Assembly: GCA_021199335.1 (NCBI GenBank)
Contig: JAJQIG010000046.1
Location: forward strand, 1-64,000
DNA length: 64,000 bases
Reading direction: 5' to 3'
Source of the DNA: Oscillospiraceae bacterium
GTDB lineage: Bacteria > Bacillota > Clostridia > Oscillospirales > Ruminococcaceae
In this document: positions 36,870 to 45,440 of the stretch, piece after piece
Layout of the letters: every line of letters starts with the position of its first letter
Position numbering within the stretch: the first letter of the stretch is position 1
Program-made: the position numbers and the translations under genes
Notes under the pieces: model-generated
Told to the model about the DNA's origin: nothing
The model's input: only the letters and a program-made list of their open reading frames with translations
The model's database searches: none

Positions 36870-37062
36870 TTAATAATCATCCCTTTTCAGTAGGTTGTTT
36901 ATCCAACTATTCTGTTACAGTATAGCATAAATACACCGGTTCGTCAAATGTCACTGATTTGTTACCAATTGTAATTGTATTGTTTTGGAATATTCATTGA
37001 CTTTAACAAATATAAGTGCTAAAATATAGGTAATATTAATGGAGAGTATGGAGGGATTAGTT

Positions 37063-38829
37063 ATGACAAAGTGCTTCTTTAAATCATTCCTGAGCAGCCT
37101 TATCGCATTGCTTATGATAGTATCGCTCGCGGCAATTCCGTCCTCGGCGGCAACTGCTACAATCAGCAAAACATCCTTTAACCTCACAAAGGGTTATGCA
37201 ACAACTCTTTCGGTTGAGGGTGCCTCGGGTACGGTTACATGGTCCACGGGGGATAAAACTATCGCTACCGTCAACAGCAGCGGCAGGGTTATCGGTAAGG
37301 GGCTTGGAACAACTTATATTTATGCAAAAGTGAATGGGGAAACACTCAAGAGCAAGGTCACTGTCGTTGCGGGAAAAATTGCCGTTGGAAAAACAACTGT
37401 GAGTCTTGACAGCGGCGATACAACAACCGTCAAAATTAAGGCAATCGGTACGCATACTCTTTCGGTTTCGTCCTCCGATAAGTCGGTTGTAAAGGCTTCA
37501 TGGAACGGGGCTAAATTTGACGGAGATTATGTTAATCTTACCCTCCAAGCAGTTGGTGAGGGAACGGCAAAGGTTAAGGTGTATGCTAAAAATTACTCCT
37601 CGACAGTCTATAAATATATTACAGTAACAGTGGACGGCGCAGATCTTAGCGATGACGGCAGTACCACAAGCCAGCTTGTTTCCTCTGTAAGCTCGGTGTC
37701 GGTCAATGCGGGGGAAAGCTCAACCTTCAGCGTTTATTCCCTTAGCTCAAGCACATCAAGCCTTAAGGCTTCATCCGCAAATTCATCGATTGCAACGGCA
37801 AGCATAAGCGGTACAAAGGTTACAGTAACGGGAGTCGCTGCGGGAACAACATCGGTTAAGGTGTATGTTTCGGGCAATACAAGTACATACATAACCGTTC
37901 CCGTGACTGTCAGTGCAAGCTCATCATATTATGTTATTTCTTCCACAAGACCGACAAAAATGGTTAGCACCGACCAGATTGTAACTATCAAAATTACACA
38001 GTATACCGAAAGATATATGCTTGTTCCGTATGGGTATGACGAGGCGTACGTGAATACCGTAATTGCACAATATGTCGGAACATACAGCTACTATACAATA
38101 TATGATTCTCAGCCGACAAAGCTGCTTTCATCCGATACTATCCTTACAAAGACGGTAACGCTGAACGGACAGAGCGTAATAAGGTATGTCCTTGTCCCCA
38201 CGGGCTATGATACAGCAAAGGCAGCAACTGTTTTCGCTAAGTATTCATCAACGTATGAGTATTATGTGGTTTACACAAGCTATCCTACATTATTGGCATA
38301 TTCCGATGTAGTAAAGTCGTGGACGATTGAAACTGTTGACGAATCAACGGGAACTACTTCCACATCATCAAGATATATGCTTGTTCCATACAGCTACGAT
38401 TCAACCAAGGTTGATCTGCTGATTGAGAATGATAAGTCTGCAAATCAGGTTACAAGCATCTACAAGGTTTTGACAACAATGCCAACGAATTATAATGCAT
38501 CTGTTTACGAGCTTATCACATGGACTAATAACGGTTCAAACAGATATATGATTGTTCCTATCTCAAATTGCGATTACGTAAAGAGAAATGATGCGGTTCA
38601 GGCTGATATGGGAGTTTATTGCTATTATGTTGTATATTCTACCAAGCCTACAGTAACAAATTCATCCGTTGAAGCGGTATGGACGGGTTCTATCCTTTCC
38701 GCAGACGGAAATTCCAGCCGCAGGGTATATATCCTTTACAACCCATCTGATACCGACTTTGCTACTAAGATAAGTGCCGCAATTACAGGTTCCGATTATA
38801 TTGGTATAAAGCAGGGTTCTGTGTCATAA
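37063..38829 (+). CDS. Secreted BIG2-type Ig-like protein with C-terminal tandem repeats
   Basis: Signal peptide; BIG2 motifs (VTWSTGDKTIATVNSSGRVIGKGLGTTYIYAKVNG); five repeats with YYVVYxxxPT...RYMLVPxxYD. Confidence 0.8.
   Translation: MTKCFFKSFLSSLIALLMIVSLAAIPSSAATATISKTSFNLTKGYATTLSVEGASGTVTWSTGDKTIATVNSSGRVIGKGLGTTYIYAKVNGETLKSKVTVVAGKIAVGKTTVSLDSGDTTTVKIKAIGTHTLSVSSSDKSVVKASWNGAKFDGDYVNLTLQAVGEGTAKVKVYAKNYSSTVYKYITVTVDGADLSDDGSTTSQLVSSVSSVSVNAGESSTFSVYSLSSSTSSLKASSANSSIATASISGTKVTVTGVAAGTTSVKVYVSGNTSTYITVPVTVSASSSYYVISSTRPTKMVSTDQIVTIKITQYTERYMLVPYGYDEAYVNTVIAQYVGTYSYYTIYDSQPTKLLSSDTILTKTVTLNGQSVIRYVLVPTGYDTAKAATVFAKYSSTYEYYVVYTSYPTLLAYSDVVKSWTIETVDESTGTTSTSSRYMLVPYSYDSTKVDLLIENDKSANQVTSIYKVLTTMPTNYNASVYELITWTNNGSNRYMIVPISNCDYVKRNDAVQADMGVYCYYVVYSTKPTVTNSSVEAVWTGSILSADGNSSRRVYILYNPSDTDFATKISAAITGSDYIGIKQGSVS
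37918..38808 (+). repeat. Five degenerate 55-65 aa protein repeats
   Basis: Recurring YY(V/T)(I/V)Y/S..PT ... R(Y/V)(M/V)(L/I)(V/L)(P/Y) motif in the translation. Confidence 0.7.
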
Positions 38830-40414: not shown

Positions 40415-41626
40415 TTAAAGAAAAAAGGTTTCGTTGAGAACAGAAACGCTTCCGTCAATGTCTTTAAGGTCAACAAGGTACATATTTTTCTTTATCCCTT
40501 CCAGTTTTCGGTTGAGAACCTCTGTAACAGGGAAAACAACAGCCGTGTTTCCGTCATCAATACCATGATAATTGTTAAAATCATAAAACTTGAATACAAT
40601 ATTTATTGCGGAATCATCAGCCTTGCTTTTTACATAGAAGTTGGAAACAGGTTCCATGTTAAGGTCAAGCGAAGTGTTTGAAAGGGAGTTTGTCATTTTT
40701 TCAGGGGTCATAAAATAATATTTTTCTCTGTTAATTTGTTTGCGCAGACTTGTTGCAATGCAGGCGCAGAAAAGCTTGTCGATGGGGAAAAGCATTGCAT
40801 AGGAAACCTTTCCGCCGCAGAAAAATGTTGTCGTACCCTTGTTGAGGAGAAAAAGTCTGCACCATTGCATTGCGTTGGTGTATTTGCTCATACTTCTGTC
40901 ATCGATTACGGCTTTGAAGTCTTTGTAAACATTGAGGGAAAAGTCGATGCCATCAAAAGCGGGGAGAAGCATTTTTATTTTCTTCAAATTAAGCGTGTTG
41001 GTCGAGAGCTTGCCGAGCATACGCAAAGTGGATTTAATAAGCCTGTTCTCCGCACGGTTGGTGCTGAAAACATCATATTCCACGAAAAACTTTTCTTTGT
41101 GCGCATAGTTTCTCTTAGCGTGCTCCGAGTAAATCGTCTTGCCCTTGACGAACATTTCGTTGCCCTGATAGGGAACATAGGTCTGCTTCAGACCGCCCCT
41201 TACAACATCAAGAACTTCATCGGTAAACATTCTTACGCAGATTTCAAAGATATTAAGCTGTTCCTTTTTAAAATAAAGCTCGTCAACTTTTCTGACAGGA
41301 ATTTCAAGCATAGATTGAAGCATCCGTAGAATAAGGCTCTTTGAAACAAGCGCATTTTCATCACGGTCTAAGCAAATTTGGGGCATAAGCTCAATTTGCG
41401 TGCCGTCTTTAAGCGTTATTATTCCCGCATATCTGGCAGGCCGTATCGCTTTACAGCCATCCGCCATAAAAAATTCATGCATAACGGGGAAACGGTTATT
41501 TTCCGTAAAATCTGCAAGGCGGTCAAAATTAAGCTCATTCAGCGGTATAATATGCGGGTCATCGGAGCTTTGCCCCTTTATAAAGCAATCCGCATCGGTA
41601 ATAACAAAGCGTTTAAGTTTTTTCAT
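40415..41626 (-). CDS. McrC-family protein
   Basis: PYQGNEMFVKGKTIYSEHAKRNYAHKEKFFVEYDVFSTNRAENRLIKSTLRML typical of McrC/LlaJI-like partner proteins. Confidence 0.85.
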   Translation of the reverse strand: MKKLKRFVITDADCFIKGQSSDDPHIIPLNELNFDRLADFTENNRFPVMHEFFMADGCKAIRPARYAGIITLKDGTQIELMPQICLDRDENALVSKSLILRMLQSMLEIPVRKVDELYFKKEQLNIFEICVRMFTDEVLDVVRGGLKQTYVPYQGNEMFVKGKTIYSEHAKRNYAHKEKFFVEYDVFSTNRAENRLIKSTLRMLGKLSTNTLNLKKIKMLLPAFDGIDFSLNVYKDFKAVIDDRSMSKYTNAMQWCRLFLLNKGTTTFFCGGKVSYAMLFPIDKLFCACIATSLRKQINREKYYFMTPEKMTNSLSNTSLDLNMEPVSNFYVKSKADDSAINIVFKFYDFNNYHGIDDGNTAVVFPVTEVLNRKLEGIKKNMYLVDLKDIDGSVSVLNETFFL

Positions 41627-41643
41627 CGCTGATTTCCCTCAAA

Positions 41644-42651
41644 CTATATTTTAAGATAAGCGTTAACGTTGCCGAAAGCAGCGTTGTTGACAGTGTAAAC
41701 CTCATCATTTTCGAGATAAAGCTCCGCATTTGCACCGAAAATTTGTGCGTAATCAACATCCGTTGCACGGACAAACTGTTCGTTCTCCTCTTTGTTTGAG
41801 TCACCGAGAACAAGTCGGATTTTCTCATAATCATCATAAAAATAGTCCTGAAGCAGCGGAACTATCGAATTTTTAAAGATGTGCGCAAGCACCGCAAGGC
41901 TTGGGCGGGAACGAAGCGCCATAAAATATGCGTGTCCGATTGTATGATCACGATCAAGAAGAATTTCAATTCGTTTGTTAATTTTAATCATAAGCTGGCG
42001 AATATCTATTCCCTCAACGGTAACCCCAGCAAGAAGGTCGGGATTGGGCAGCATTTCAACAAAGTCAAAACGACGTCTTAAAGCGGAGTCAAGCATAGCG
42101 ATTGAACGGTCGGCAGTGTTCATCGTGCCGAGTATGTACACATTGTCGGGAACGCCGAACGCCTCTTGAGAATAGGCAAGCTTAACCGTAGCTTCCTCAG
42201 CCTGTCCCACTCGTTTTGTCGGTTCAATAATAGTAATCATTTCACCGAAGATTTTGGAAACGTTTCCTCGGTTAATTTCATCTATAATAAATACATATTT
42301 TTCACCGGGATTTTTGGCGGCTTCATCACAGAAACGCTTGAAAACGCCTTGGCTTACACGGTAAACCATTTCCTCCTTACGGGAACGTTCACCTTTCTCG
42401 TTCATTACCTGAATAAATACAGGCTTGATACCCTCTACAAACTCCTCGTAGCCGAAAGACTGATGGAATGTTGTAAATTCTATCTGACCGTAAAGGGATT
42501 TAAGAGCGTTATATTTTTCGAGAAGATCGTTATAATCATCCTTCATAACCTCTCTGATAGGCCTTCCATAAATAATGGAAATAGCATACGCAACGGTATT
42601 ATAGGTTTTGCCGGTTCCGGGGGGACCGTAAAGAATAATATTAGAGCCCAT
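41644..42651 (-). CDS. McrB-like AAA+ GTPase, no N-terminal specificity domain
   Basis: Starts MGSNIILYGPPGTGKTY; FTTFHQSFGYEEFVEGIKP, FIIDEINRGNVSKIFGEMITIIE, GTMNTADRSIAMLDSALRRRFDF; in-frame TAA 15 nt upstream. Confidence 0.9.
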   Translation of the reverse strand: MGSNIILYGPPGTGKTYNTVAYAISIIYGRPIREVMKDDYNDLLEKYNALKSLYGQIEFTTFHQSFGYEEFVEGIKPVFIQVMNEKGERSRKEEMVYRVSQGVFKRFCDEAAKNPGEKYVFIIDEINRGNVSKIFGEMITIIEPTKRVGQAEEATVKLAYSQEAFGVPDNVYILGTMNTADRSIAMLDSALRRRFDFVEMLPNPDLLAGVTVEGIDIRQLMIKINKRIEILLDRDHTIGHAYFMALRSRPSLAVLAHIFKNSIVPLLQDYFYDDYEKIRLVLGDSNKEENEQFVRATDVDYAQIFGANAELYLENDEVYTVNNAAFGNVNAYLKI

Positions 42652-42894
42652 TAATCTGCCACCTTACATATAAAAAATAAGTCATACCGCATACTTGTAA
42701 AAAGCTTCACTACGATACATATTTATTATATTTTACCTCAATTTCAAAAAAATTTCAATAGAAAAATGCCCCTTGCAAATTTTTTTGACTATTATAACAA
42801 ATTACTAAGGCTATAATATACATTTTACACTAAATAATTAAGGAATCCAAGCCAAAAATCTCCGCACAAATTTATGGGATACATTTGGGCAATA

Positions 42895-43260
42895 TTAAAG
42901 ACCGTCCATCGGTGGTTTGTGCATCCTTACGATTTTTTCAACAATTTCCGCAACCTGAACGGCTTCGTCTTCGGTAAGCTCACTCAGCGCAGCATCGATA
43001 CGATGGCGTGCTTCCTCGCTTGAAGGATGTATATCCGCCTCAAAATCAAGGAGCTGAGTTATGGAAATTTTCAGTCCCATGCAGATTTTATACAGCGTAT
43101 CAATGCTGGGACAGCGTTCGCCGCGTTCCAACCTCCCGAGGAAATCGGGATGGATTCCTGAGGTCAAGGCTAAATTTTCCTGGCTCATTTTTCGCTCTAT
43201 GCGGTAATCACGAATTCTTGTTCCTACCATATATGATATTTTTTCACGACTGTAAGTCAT
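42895..43260 (-). CDS. XRE-family HTH transcriptional regulator
   Basis: IRDYRIERKMSQENLALTSGIHPDFLGRLERGERCPSIDTLYKI. Confidence 0.92.
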   Translation of the reverse strand: MTYSREKISYMVGTRIRDYRIERKMSQENLALTSGIHPDFLGRLERGERCPSIDTLYKICMGLKISITQLLDFEADIHPSSEEARHRIDAALSELTEDEAVQVAEIVEKIVRMHKPPMDGL

Positions 43261-43377: not shown

Positions 43378-43532
43378 TAATTTGTCGAAACGTCGGGAAA
43401 AATGCATAATGACAACAGATGTCTAACCTTGTAGGTATAATAATATAAAAGGAATATAAATGCGTGTTCTTTCGGGGAAATTTGGAGTAAGCTATTTTGA
43501 AATATGAATTATAATGTTTGGAGTGCCGAATT

Positions 43533-44489
43533 ATGCCAAAAAATGTTGAGGAGTCGGGGTTTAAGTATAACCGTGTTCTTGTAATTTATACACGGCTTAT
43601 GAATGGAGAGGTTATTAATAAGGCGGAGGAGGCAAAACGTTTCGGAGTTGCGCTTCGTTCAATACAACGTGATATAGACAGCCTGAGATGTTTCTTTGCG
43701 GACAGAGCAGCTAAAGGCGAGCTTGAAAAAGAGCTTGTTTATGACTCGAAGCTGAATGGGTACTACCTTAAAACAAAGGATGATCAATCCCTTACCAACA
43801 GTGAAATATTAGCTGTCTGCAAGATTCTCCTGGAAAGCAGGGCGTTCTGCAAGAGCGATATTACGCCGATTCTTGAAAAGCTGCTGAACAACTGCGTTCC
43901 CAAAAGCAAGCAGGGTACATTTAAGGAGCTTATTTCCAACGAGCTTTTTCATTACGTTGAGCCAAGGCATGGCAAGCATTTTGTTGAATCCCTATGGGAA
44001 ATAGGCGAGGCTGTCAGTGGGCATAGGGTTATGGAAATAAACTACGAAAAGCAGGATGGCAGCGTTGTTGAGCGGAAAATTCAGCCTGTGGGAATAATGT
44101 TTTCCGAGTTTTATTTTTATCTTACGGGATTTATTGAAGGAATTGATAGGAATGCGGAATTCAGTAACCCCGATGATATTTTCCCGACAATCTACCGAAT
44201 AGATCGAATCAAAAGCTTCAGGGCAACGGAGGAGTGCTTTGATATTCCCTACCGTGACAGATCCGAAGAGGGTGAATTTCGCAAGAGAGTGCAGTTTATG
44301 TACGGCGGCAGACTCAGGAGGATAAGGTTCATATATAAAGGGAAAAATGTCGAATCCGTCCTTGACAGACTCCCCACTGCAAGGGTCATCGAAAAAACCG
44401 ATAATGGCTGCCTAATCACCGCAGAAGTCTTTGGCGATGGCGTAGATATGTGGCTCAGAAGTCAGGGGAACCTGCTGGAGATGGTGTGA
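43533..44489 (+). CDS. HTH-WYL domain transcriptional regulator
   Basis: N-terminal HTH (VINKAEEAKRFGVALRSIQRDIDSLR) and WYL-like core (RVMEINYEKQDGSVVERKIQPVGIMFSEFYFYLTGF). Confidence 0.88.
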   Translation: MPKNVEESGFKYNRVLVIYTRLMNGEVINKAEEAKRFGVALRSIQRDIDSLRCFFADRAAKGELEKELVYDSKLNGYYLKTKDDQSLTNSEILAVCKILLESRAFCKSDITPILEKLLNNCVPKSKQGTFKELISNELFHYVEPRHGKHFVESLWEIGEAVSGHRVMEINYEKQDGSVVERKIQPVGIMFSEFYFYLTGFIEGIDRNAEFSNPDDIFPTIYRIDRIKSFRATEECFDIPYRDRSEEGEFRKRVQFMYGGRLRRIRFIYKGKNVESVLDRLPTARVIEKTDNGCLITAEVFGDGVDMWLRSQGNLLEMV

Positions 44490-44690: not shown

Positions 44691-45440
44691 TTATACCAAA
44701 ACCTTTTCGTTCGCCGTTTCATTTGCGCCTTCAATTTTTTCACGAATGGACTGCATTTTCATGTCAATGCGGTTTGTTTCATCTGAACAGATGCGAAGCT
44801 CATCCTCAAGCTCCGCAGAAAGCTGCGGGTCAAGATTTTTCTTGTATCGAAGCTTATGCTCAAGGCTTGCCCAAAAGTCCATCGCAATTGTGCGGAGCTG
44901 AACCTCTACTTTCATGGGCTTTTTCTCATCGCTGAGGAAAATCGGAACCTCAACCACAAGGTGAAGCCCCCGATAGCCGTTTGGCTTTGGATTTTCGATG
45001 TAATCCTTGCGCCTGATAAGGGTTATGTCGTCCTGTTTAAGCAGACATTCCGCAAGAAGATAAATATCTGTCGGAAATGAGCAGATTACCCTTAATCCCG
45101 CAATATCGCTTATGTTTTCCATAATTGATGAGAATGTAAGCGGCAGATTCTTGCGAATCATTTTTTCGGCTATGCTTTCGGGAGATTTGATTCTGGCTTT
45201 GATTGTTTCGATAGGGTTGCGGTCATATTCCAAGGAAAACTGCTCGTTAAGCACGTTGAATTTCGTCTCAACCTCCATCATTGCACACCGATACCAAGCA
45301 TTAAGCTCCTTCCACAGTTTAAGGTTGTTCCCTGCAATGTTAATAAAGTCTTCTTTTGTTATTTCCTCATAAAACTTCGGAAAAGTTGATTCAAGCGGCA
45401 TAAGAAGCTTTGTTTCGGGATTTTGCGCATTGTTATTCAT
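44691..45440 (-). CDS. Small alarmone synthetase (RelA/SpoT synthetase domain only)
   Basis: IKSPESIAEKMIRKNL, ISDIAGLRVICSF, PNGYRGLHLVVEVP, VEVQLRTIAMDFWASLEHKLRYK; no HD domain. Confidence 0.9.
   Translation of the reverse strand: MNNNAQNPETKLLMPLESTFPKFYEEITKEDFINIAGNNLKLWKELNAWYRCAMMEVETKFNVLNEQFSLEYDRNPIETIKARIKSPESIAEKMIRKNLPLTFSSIMENISDIAGLRVICSFPTDIYLLAECLLKQDDITLIRRKDYIENPKPNGYRGLHLVVEVPIFLSDEKKPMKVEVQLRTIAMDFWASLEHKLRYKKNLDPQLSAELEDELRICSDETNRIDMKMQSIREKIEGANETANEKVLV

Follow-up and report, generated by a model that had tools for sequence, protein, structure and literature searches.

The locus and its two genes

When a restriction system no longer has the part that reads modified DNA or the residues that cut it, and has kept its motor, what does the motor do? 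This question is raised by a McrB-McrC pair found in the window, i.e. the whole stretch of 64,000 nucleotides from an Oscillospiraceae bacterium that was analysed in this work. McrBC is textbook restriction and constitutes a defence family. The pair lies at positions 40415-42651, with both genes on the minus strand, where a first interpretation made from the DNA letters (termed here the sequence-only reading) had correctly placed it.

The mcrB-like gene (41644..42651, minus strand) encodes 335 residues that form a bare AAA+ core according to both profile and structure matches, and no domain was seen fused to it. Profile searches matched the protein to the AAA_5 and McrB models, and sequence comparison aligned it to the solved McrB of Thermococcus gammatolerans (TgMcrB, E 2e-56) and to that of E. 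coli (EcMcrB, E 6e-42). The same two proteins are the best PDB folds retrieved with its AlphaFold model (pLDDT 83.9), in which the first strand comprises residues 5-9 and leads into the P-loop; NorQ is a further structural neighbour. The mcrC-like gene (40415..41626, minus strand) encodes 403 residues, with the scaffold and the finger kept and a C-terminal PD-(D/E)XK domain that is shortened and, judged by its residues, probably non-catalytic. The PF10117 match covers only profile positions 2-238 of 318 and thus ends before the nuclease end of McrC. By sequence, McrC gives a weak match to TgMcrC; the best PDB matches of its whole AlphaFold model (pLDDT 85.8) are TgMcrC (E 7e-17) and EcMcrC (E 9e-11). 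The YdiS-YdjA proteins of BsuM (model 9a5m) are a structural match for both the McrB and the McrC models.

The McrB start and the lost N-terminal segment

The sequence-only reading held that McrB has no N-terminal targeting domain, and pointed to an in-frame TAA 15 nt before the gene and to an AAGGTGG site. Both are present (stop codon at 42664-42666, ribosome-binding site at 42659..42665, minus strand), and the absence of the domain was borne out when about 48 related loci were compared. They share the start MG[S/A/K]N(I/L)ILYGPPGTGKT, with g136 deviating in the first residues, and in most of them a purine-rich ribosome-binding sequence precedes it. Upstream of this start there is either a stop codon or a run of unconserved codons, and no conserved upstream extension was detected among the roughly 48 loci. 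A misannotated or frameshifted N-terminus is therefore ruled out. Across the minimal clade McrB opens right at the P-loop strand with MG[S/A/K]NIILYGPPGTGKT; an N-terminal reader of modified DNA is absent, and a separate conserved reader gene was also not found beside the pair.

The truncation appears to reach further than the reader. In EcMcrB guanine is recognised by Asp176 and Phe178 in the linker, and in TgMcrB this role falls to Asn193, where helix 1 starts (PMC7680126). In alignment numbering, the equivalent of residue 4 of the window McrB lies 17 residues after TgMcrB Asn193, i.e. the known guanine-recognition residues fall upstream of the McrB start, and the truncation would thus have deleted the elements of GTP specificity together with the reader. 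Although another part of McrB might take over guanine recognition, the loss of this segment means that the GTP specificity of the minimal McrB may be gone, and that the use of ATP, or of both nucleotides, is possible.

Motor residues of McrB and McrC

The McrB-type AAA+ core is present with its MNxxDRS loop and catalytic set. Walker A (GPPGTGKT, residues 9-16, 42604..42627), Walker B with the residues that follow it (IIDEINRG with D124, E125, N127 and R128, 42265..42288) and the signature loop MNTADR of the NxxD type (residues 177-182, 42106..42123), all on the minus strand, are invariant in the clade and the outgroups, as are D188 and R193/R194. Their counterparts in TgMcrB, apart from Walker A, are Asp356, Glu357, Asn359, Arg360, residues 409-414, Asp420 and Arg425/426 (PMC7680126).

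The McrC partner likewise has the finger with a GTPase-stimulating Arg/Lys. In T. gammatolerans, Arg263 of McrC triggers GTP hydrolysis by McrB (PMC7680126), and in the alignment to 6ut5_G its equivalent is R244 of the window McrC (40895..40897, minus strand), a position occupied by R in all 61 McrC proteins compared. The stalk tip, identified by homology to TgMcrC and EcMcrC (residues 156-180, NEMFVKGKTIYSEHAKRNYAHKEKF, 41087..41161, minus strand), is among the most conserved stretches of McrC in the clade and is expected to lie inside the McrB pore. Judged by its residues, the motor of the pair is intact.

The McrC nuclease domain

In canonical relatives the nuclease site reads PD...DTKW and is followed by a helix with QxxxY; among the outgroup McrC proteins PD was found in 14 of 14, and the D, K and Q of the remaining motif in 13 of 14. 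In the minimal clade the PD-(D/E)XK residues are lost in 46 of 47 McrC proteins, and the loss proceeds in steps. The first D has become G in g143, where DAKW is retained; in g115, P is replaced by A and D by L in 15 of 16 proteins, and D(S/A)KW is retained; in g136 both acids are lost. The acid of DTK is replaced by V, I, R, K, Q or T in g147, g21, g117 and the genus of the window, four genera in which the QxxxY helix has been deleted and McrC shortened to about 403 residues. An acid still aligns at the first site in g117, with R, Q or T at the second. The window McrC retains the P and the K (K346, which its genus also retains), has N and V/I in place of the two acids, and is missing the QxxxY helix. 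The degenerate nuclease motif proposed by the sequence-only reading is confirmed by these comparisons, and an intact PD-(D/E)XK site elsewhere in McrC, which it had named as contrary evidence, was not found. One or more of the catalytic residues are absent from the McrC proteins of the clade with one exception, the locus L114 (1645-2994, g115), which keeps D...DAK; by its sequence this protein may be still active or may represent a reversion.

The structure prediction of the McrC C-terminus that had been suggested was carried out, and shows that the domain still folds as helix-strands-helix although the catalytic residues are absent. By alignment and model, residues 282-402 (40421..40783, minus strand) are a remnant PD-(D/E)XK fold, and this domain is under purifying selection.

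Distribution and phylogeny

About 50 loci, the window pair among them, make up a single clade, and every one of them comes from the same family of uncultured Oscillospiraceae/"Ruminococcus". A search among relatives found the pair in all six genomes of the window's genus. A family-level search that took in 398 genomes, together with searches genus by genus, added five more genera, in which 17/21, 18/20, 4/4, 5/5 and 2/2 of the genomes have it, and two loci of a seventh genus, g136. McrC matches are sporadic in the rest of the family, and those that were read out and have an in-frame McrB have a long McrB with N-terminal domains. Two McrC peptide patterns run against 84,980 species genomes gave 62 loci, among which the minimal type occurs in uncultured Oscillospiraceae/Ruminococcus/Clostridia MAGs only and was not found outside this family; the McrB proteins of the ten other loci are long or fragmentary. 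The clade is one branch in both the McrB tree (98/97) and the McrC tree (100/99), and the genera form their own branches within each. This survey of orthologues, also proposed with the sequence-only reading, shows that the pattern of McrB and McrC losses is fixed clade-wide.

Among 399 genomes sampled from the phylum, McrB proteins are almost all long, and the three short-frame exceptions that were inspected proved to be different from the minimal type. One of them, L145 (2763-5438), has a 317-aa McrB, a separate 166-aa gene and a McrC with a possible PDxK motif in one operon, i.e. a split reader arrangement in contrast to the window pair. The second has a 492-aa gene just upstream of McrB, and the third has about 100 residues ahead of the McrB match.

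Selection and conservation

Pairwise Nei-Gojobori comparisons, in which pairs with saturated dS are uninformative, gave dN/dS values between 0.005 and 0.10 for McrB; in McrC they reach at most 0.07 over residues 1-280 and 0.15 from residue 281 to the end. The frames are open in nearly all loci of the clade. Since dN/dS does not exceed 0.15, the pair is not decaying, and the pseudogene lineage that the sequence-only reading had named as a possible refutation is ruled out. In one genome (G279) McrC is interrupted by a TAG stop (L119 8001-8576), which could reflect a genuine loss or a fault in the assembly.

The identity of McrB between species pairs is 90-98%, which equals or exceeds that of most neighbouring proteins and, within most genera, the conservation of YchF. 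Between genera the McrB and YchF distances match only loosely (Mantel r 0.38, a value reached in 0 of 2000 permutations). McrB separates {g1, g117, g21, g147} from {g115, g143, g136} more deeply than YchF does, and an early transfer between genera or a change of rate is therefore possible.

Genomic context

The pair sits outside defence islands, among housekeeping genes such as ispE, an aminotransferase gene, thiN, rsgA, prkC, rlmN, ychF or dnaX. In g117, in g147 and, within the window's genus, in the species of L077, it follows the aminotransferase gene and ispE; in other members of that genus it lies between dnaX and ychF, or elsewhere. Housekeeping synteny aside, no nuclease, reader or other gene was found to be conserved beside the pair across genera in about 50 loci, and a linked effector or a split reader gene was rejected on these grounds. 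A second McrB or McrC was not found in the window's genome; most carriers have a single McrC match, and two genomes (G394 and G444) have a second, divergent one. The gap between mcrB and mcrC is a few to about 190 bases, except at one g147 locus where it reaches 380 bases (L095 7620-8001).

Upstream of mcrB the window contains an HTH_3 regulator (42895-43260), a WYL-domain regulator (43518-44489) and, further on, a small RelA/SpoT-type synthetase (44691-45440). Each of these genes is touched by PADLOC profiles, but the other loci do not have them in common with the window, and a defence-island context of the window was rejected for this reason. A 596-aa protein with bacterial Ig-like (Big_2) domains is encoded next to ychF (37039-38829).

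A proposed motor without reader and nuclease

The explanation that we favour, with somewhat better than even confidence, is that the two proteins are a McrBC motor which has been domesticated and no longer cleaves. McrB would form an NTP-driven AAA+ ring into which the McrC stalk is inserted, and R244 would trigger hydrolysis as it does in restriction McrBC, with ATP, or both nucleotides, possibly driving the motor. Modified DNA would no longer be read through McrB or cut through McrC, and the complex would most likely be a remodelling or translocating machine that acts on a host substrate, either a protein assembly or the cell's own DNA. The shrunken nuclease fold might act as a head for binding or dimerisation, much as in MoxR-type AAA+/adaptor pairs such as NorQ-NorD. 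The sequences show that reader and catalytic residues were lost while the motor residues stayed intact, under strong selection, near-universally and with no linked partner; complex formation, NTP use, substrate and cellular role we infer. A motor that is near-universal and tightly conserved after losing its reading and cutting parts suggests another job in the cell. Points against domestication are that all members come from uncultured organisms, that McrB distances between genera follow those of YchF only loosely, that the L114 protein could still cut, and that an unlinked reader or nuclease may exist. We consider the chances about even for the full proposal, in which an intact McrB-McrC motor has been domesticated into a core machine of the cell, its nucleotide specificity changed and its head no longer a nuclease.

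The most serious competitor, which we nevertheless regard as unlikely, is a defence role without cleavage: the motor would bind to or travel on foreign nucleic acid and block phage or signal to an unlinked effector, with contact made by what is left of the nuclease fold or by a reader that is not linked to the pair. This would be in keeping with the defensive nature of the family, with CoCoNuTs, in which dead McrC nuclease domains are kept as proposed nucleic-acid binders (PMC11090510), and with L145, where a short McrB and a separate small gene accompany a McrC with a possible PDxK. However, the dead-nuclease CoCoNuTs always have a linked nuclease, whereas no linked effector or reader is seen in about 50 loci, and near-universal presence with very slow change is unlike defence genes. 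It is less probable still, at perhaps the level of an outside chance, that McrC cuts via a rearranged active site that has escaped recognition. PD-(D/E)XK sites are able to migrate, and both K346 in the window's genus and the motif of L114 have been retained; yet neither acid is left in g1, g21, g147 and g136, g117 has R, Q or T at the second site, and g147, g21, g117 and the window's genus have no QxxxY helix.

Co-assembly of the minimal McrB and the dead McrC with an incoming active McrBC, which would be poisoned by a dominant-negative regulator of this kind, would extend the idea of the E. coli McrBs, described as a modulator of McrBC (cited in PMC6344862), and a second, divergent McrC match is present in G394 and G444. 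We find this quite improbable, because the window's genome carries this McrB and this McrC alone, a single McrC match is the rule among carriers, and a poison would need neither an intact GTPase nor the R244 activator. The step-wise loss of nuclease residues and the one stop codon in G279 could be taken as signs of a restriction system on its way to disappearance, but with low dN/dS, open frames in nearly all loci and a McrB whose conservation ranks among the highest in the region, such decay is hardly credible.

Returning to the domesticated motor, the suggestion of the sequence-only reading that the pair may act without DNA cleavage is well supported, since the catalytic residues are lost, the fold is kept, selection is strong and the motor residues are intact. 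Reliance on an unlinked effector, its other suggestion, is possible but gains no support, and no linked gene is conserved. The label of a minimal restriction system is doubtful, because the pair behaves as a stably kept core gene and not as a mobile defence gene. Clade-wide fixation, the intact GTPase machinery and the loss of the guanine-recognition segment go beyond that first reading. If the proposal is true, this would be, to our knowledge, the first McrBC pair, as opposed to McrB alone, known outside restriction; a literature search for domesticated McrBC or McrC in Ruminococcus returned nothing relevant. Such a motor-only lineage is a natural experiment on a McrB-McrC rotor uncoupled from DNA reading and cutting, and it bears on how a defence machine turns into a core one, while the missing guanine-recognition segment bears on the origin of GTP specificity in the McrB AAA+ family.

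Comparison with known systems

The window pair resembles the McrBC systems of E. coli and T. gammatolerans (6hz4, 6ut5, 6ut7) in the NxxD loop, the paired arginines, the Walker motifs, the McrC scaffold with its finger and catalytic arginine, and the gene order, and it differs from them in having no reader, guanine-recognition segment, nuclease residues or QxxxY helix. An inactivated or missing PD-(D/E)XK domain of McrC is also found in CoCoNuT types II and III, in which a HEPN or other nuclease is always linked to the dead McrC and McrB has an NxD-type loop and coiled coils (PMC11090510). The window pair, in contrast, has NTAD (NxxD), no coiled-coil fusion and no linked nuclease such as HEPN, and CoCoNuT membership was rejected on these three features. 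PcdA, a McrB co-opted for cell division in Staphylococcus, has lost McrC as well as NTPase motifs, and its hydrolysis of ATP equals that of GTP (PMC10602043). It shows that a McrB can be recruited for a cell-division role, and, like the window pair as proposed here, it is a Firmicutes McrB-family protein of one lineage only that was recruited away from restriction. PcdA keeps two EVE readers and has a degraded NTPase with a degraded Walker A, whereas the window McrB, with no tandem EVE, no N-terminal domain, an intact GPPGTGKT and a McrC partner, is not a member of that group.

The N-terminally shortened McrBs also has no DNA-binding domain, but unlike the window McrB it is made from a complete mcrB gene and has an active McrC as its partner. 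It also retains the linker, with about 39 residues before the P-loop. YdiS-YdjA of BsuM in B. subtilis is likewise a short McrB-like protein (343 residues) paired with a McrC-like protein (465 residues). This pair belongs to a restriction system with a further gene, ydiR; a separate specificity gene of the BsuM type was not found beside the short McrB, as no conserved third gene adjoins the pair. An AAA+ ring with an activating partner is also the plan of MoxR AAA+/adaptor pairs such as NorQ-NorD (PMC9976466, PMC13036017). NorD, however, has a VWA domain and no McrC finger, and the partners are unrelated by sequence. The nearest precedents are PcdA, the CoCoNuTs with dead McrC, the E. coli McrBs and BsuM, and none of the compared systems joins, as the window pair does, an intact motor with the absence of a reader, a nuclease and a partner gene.
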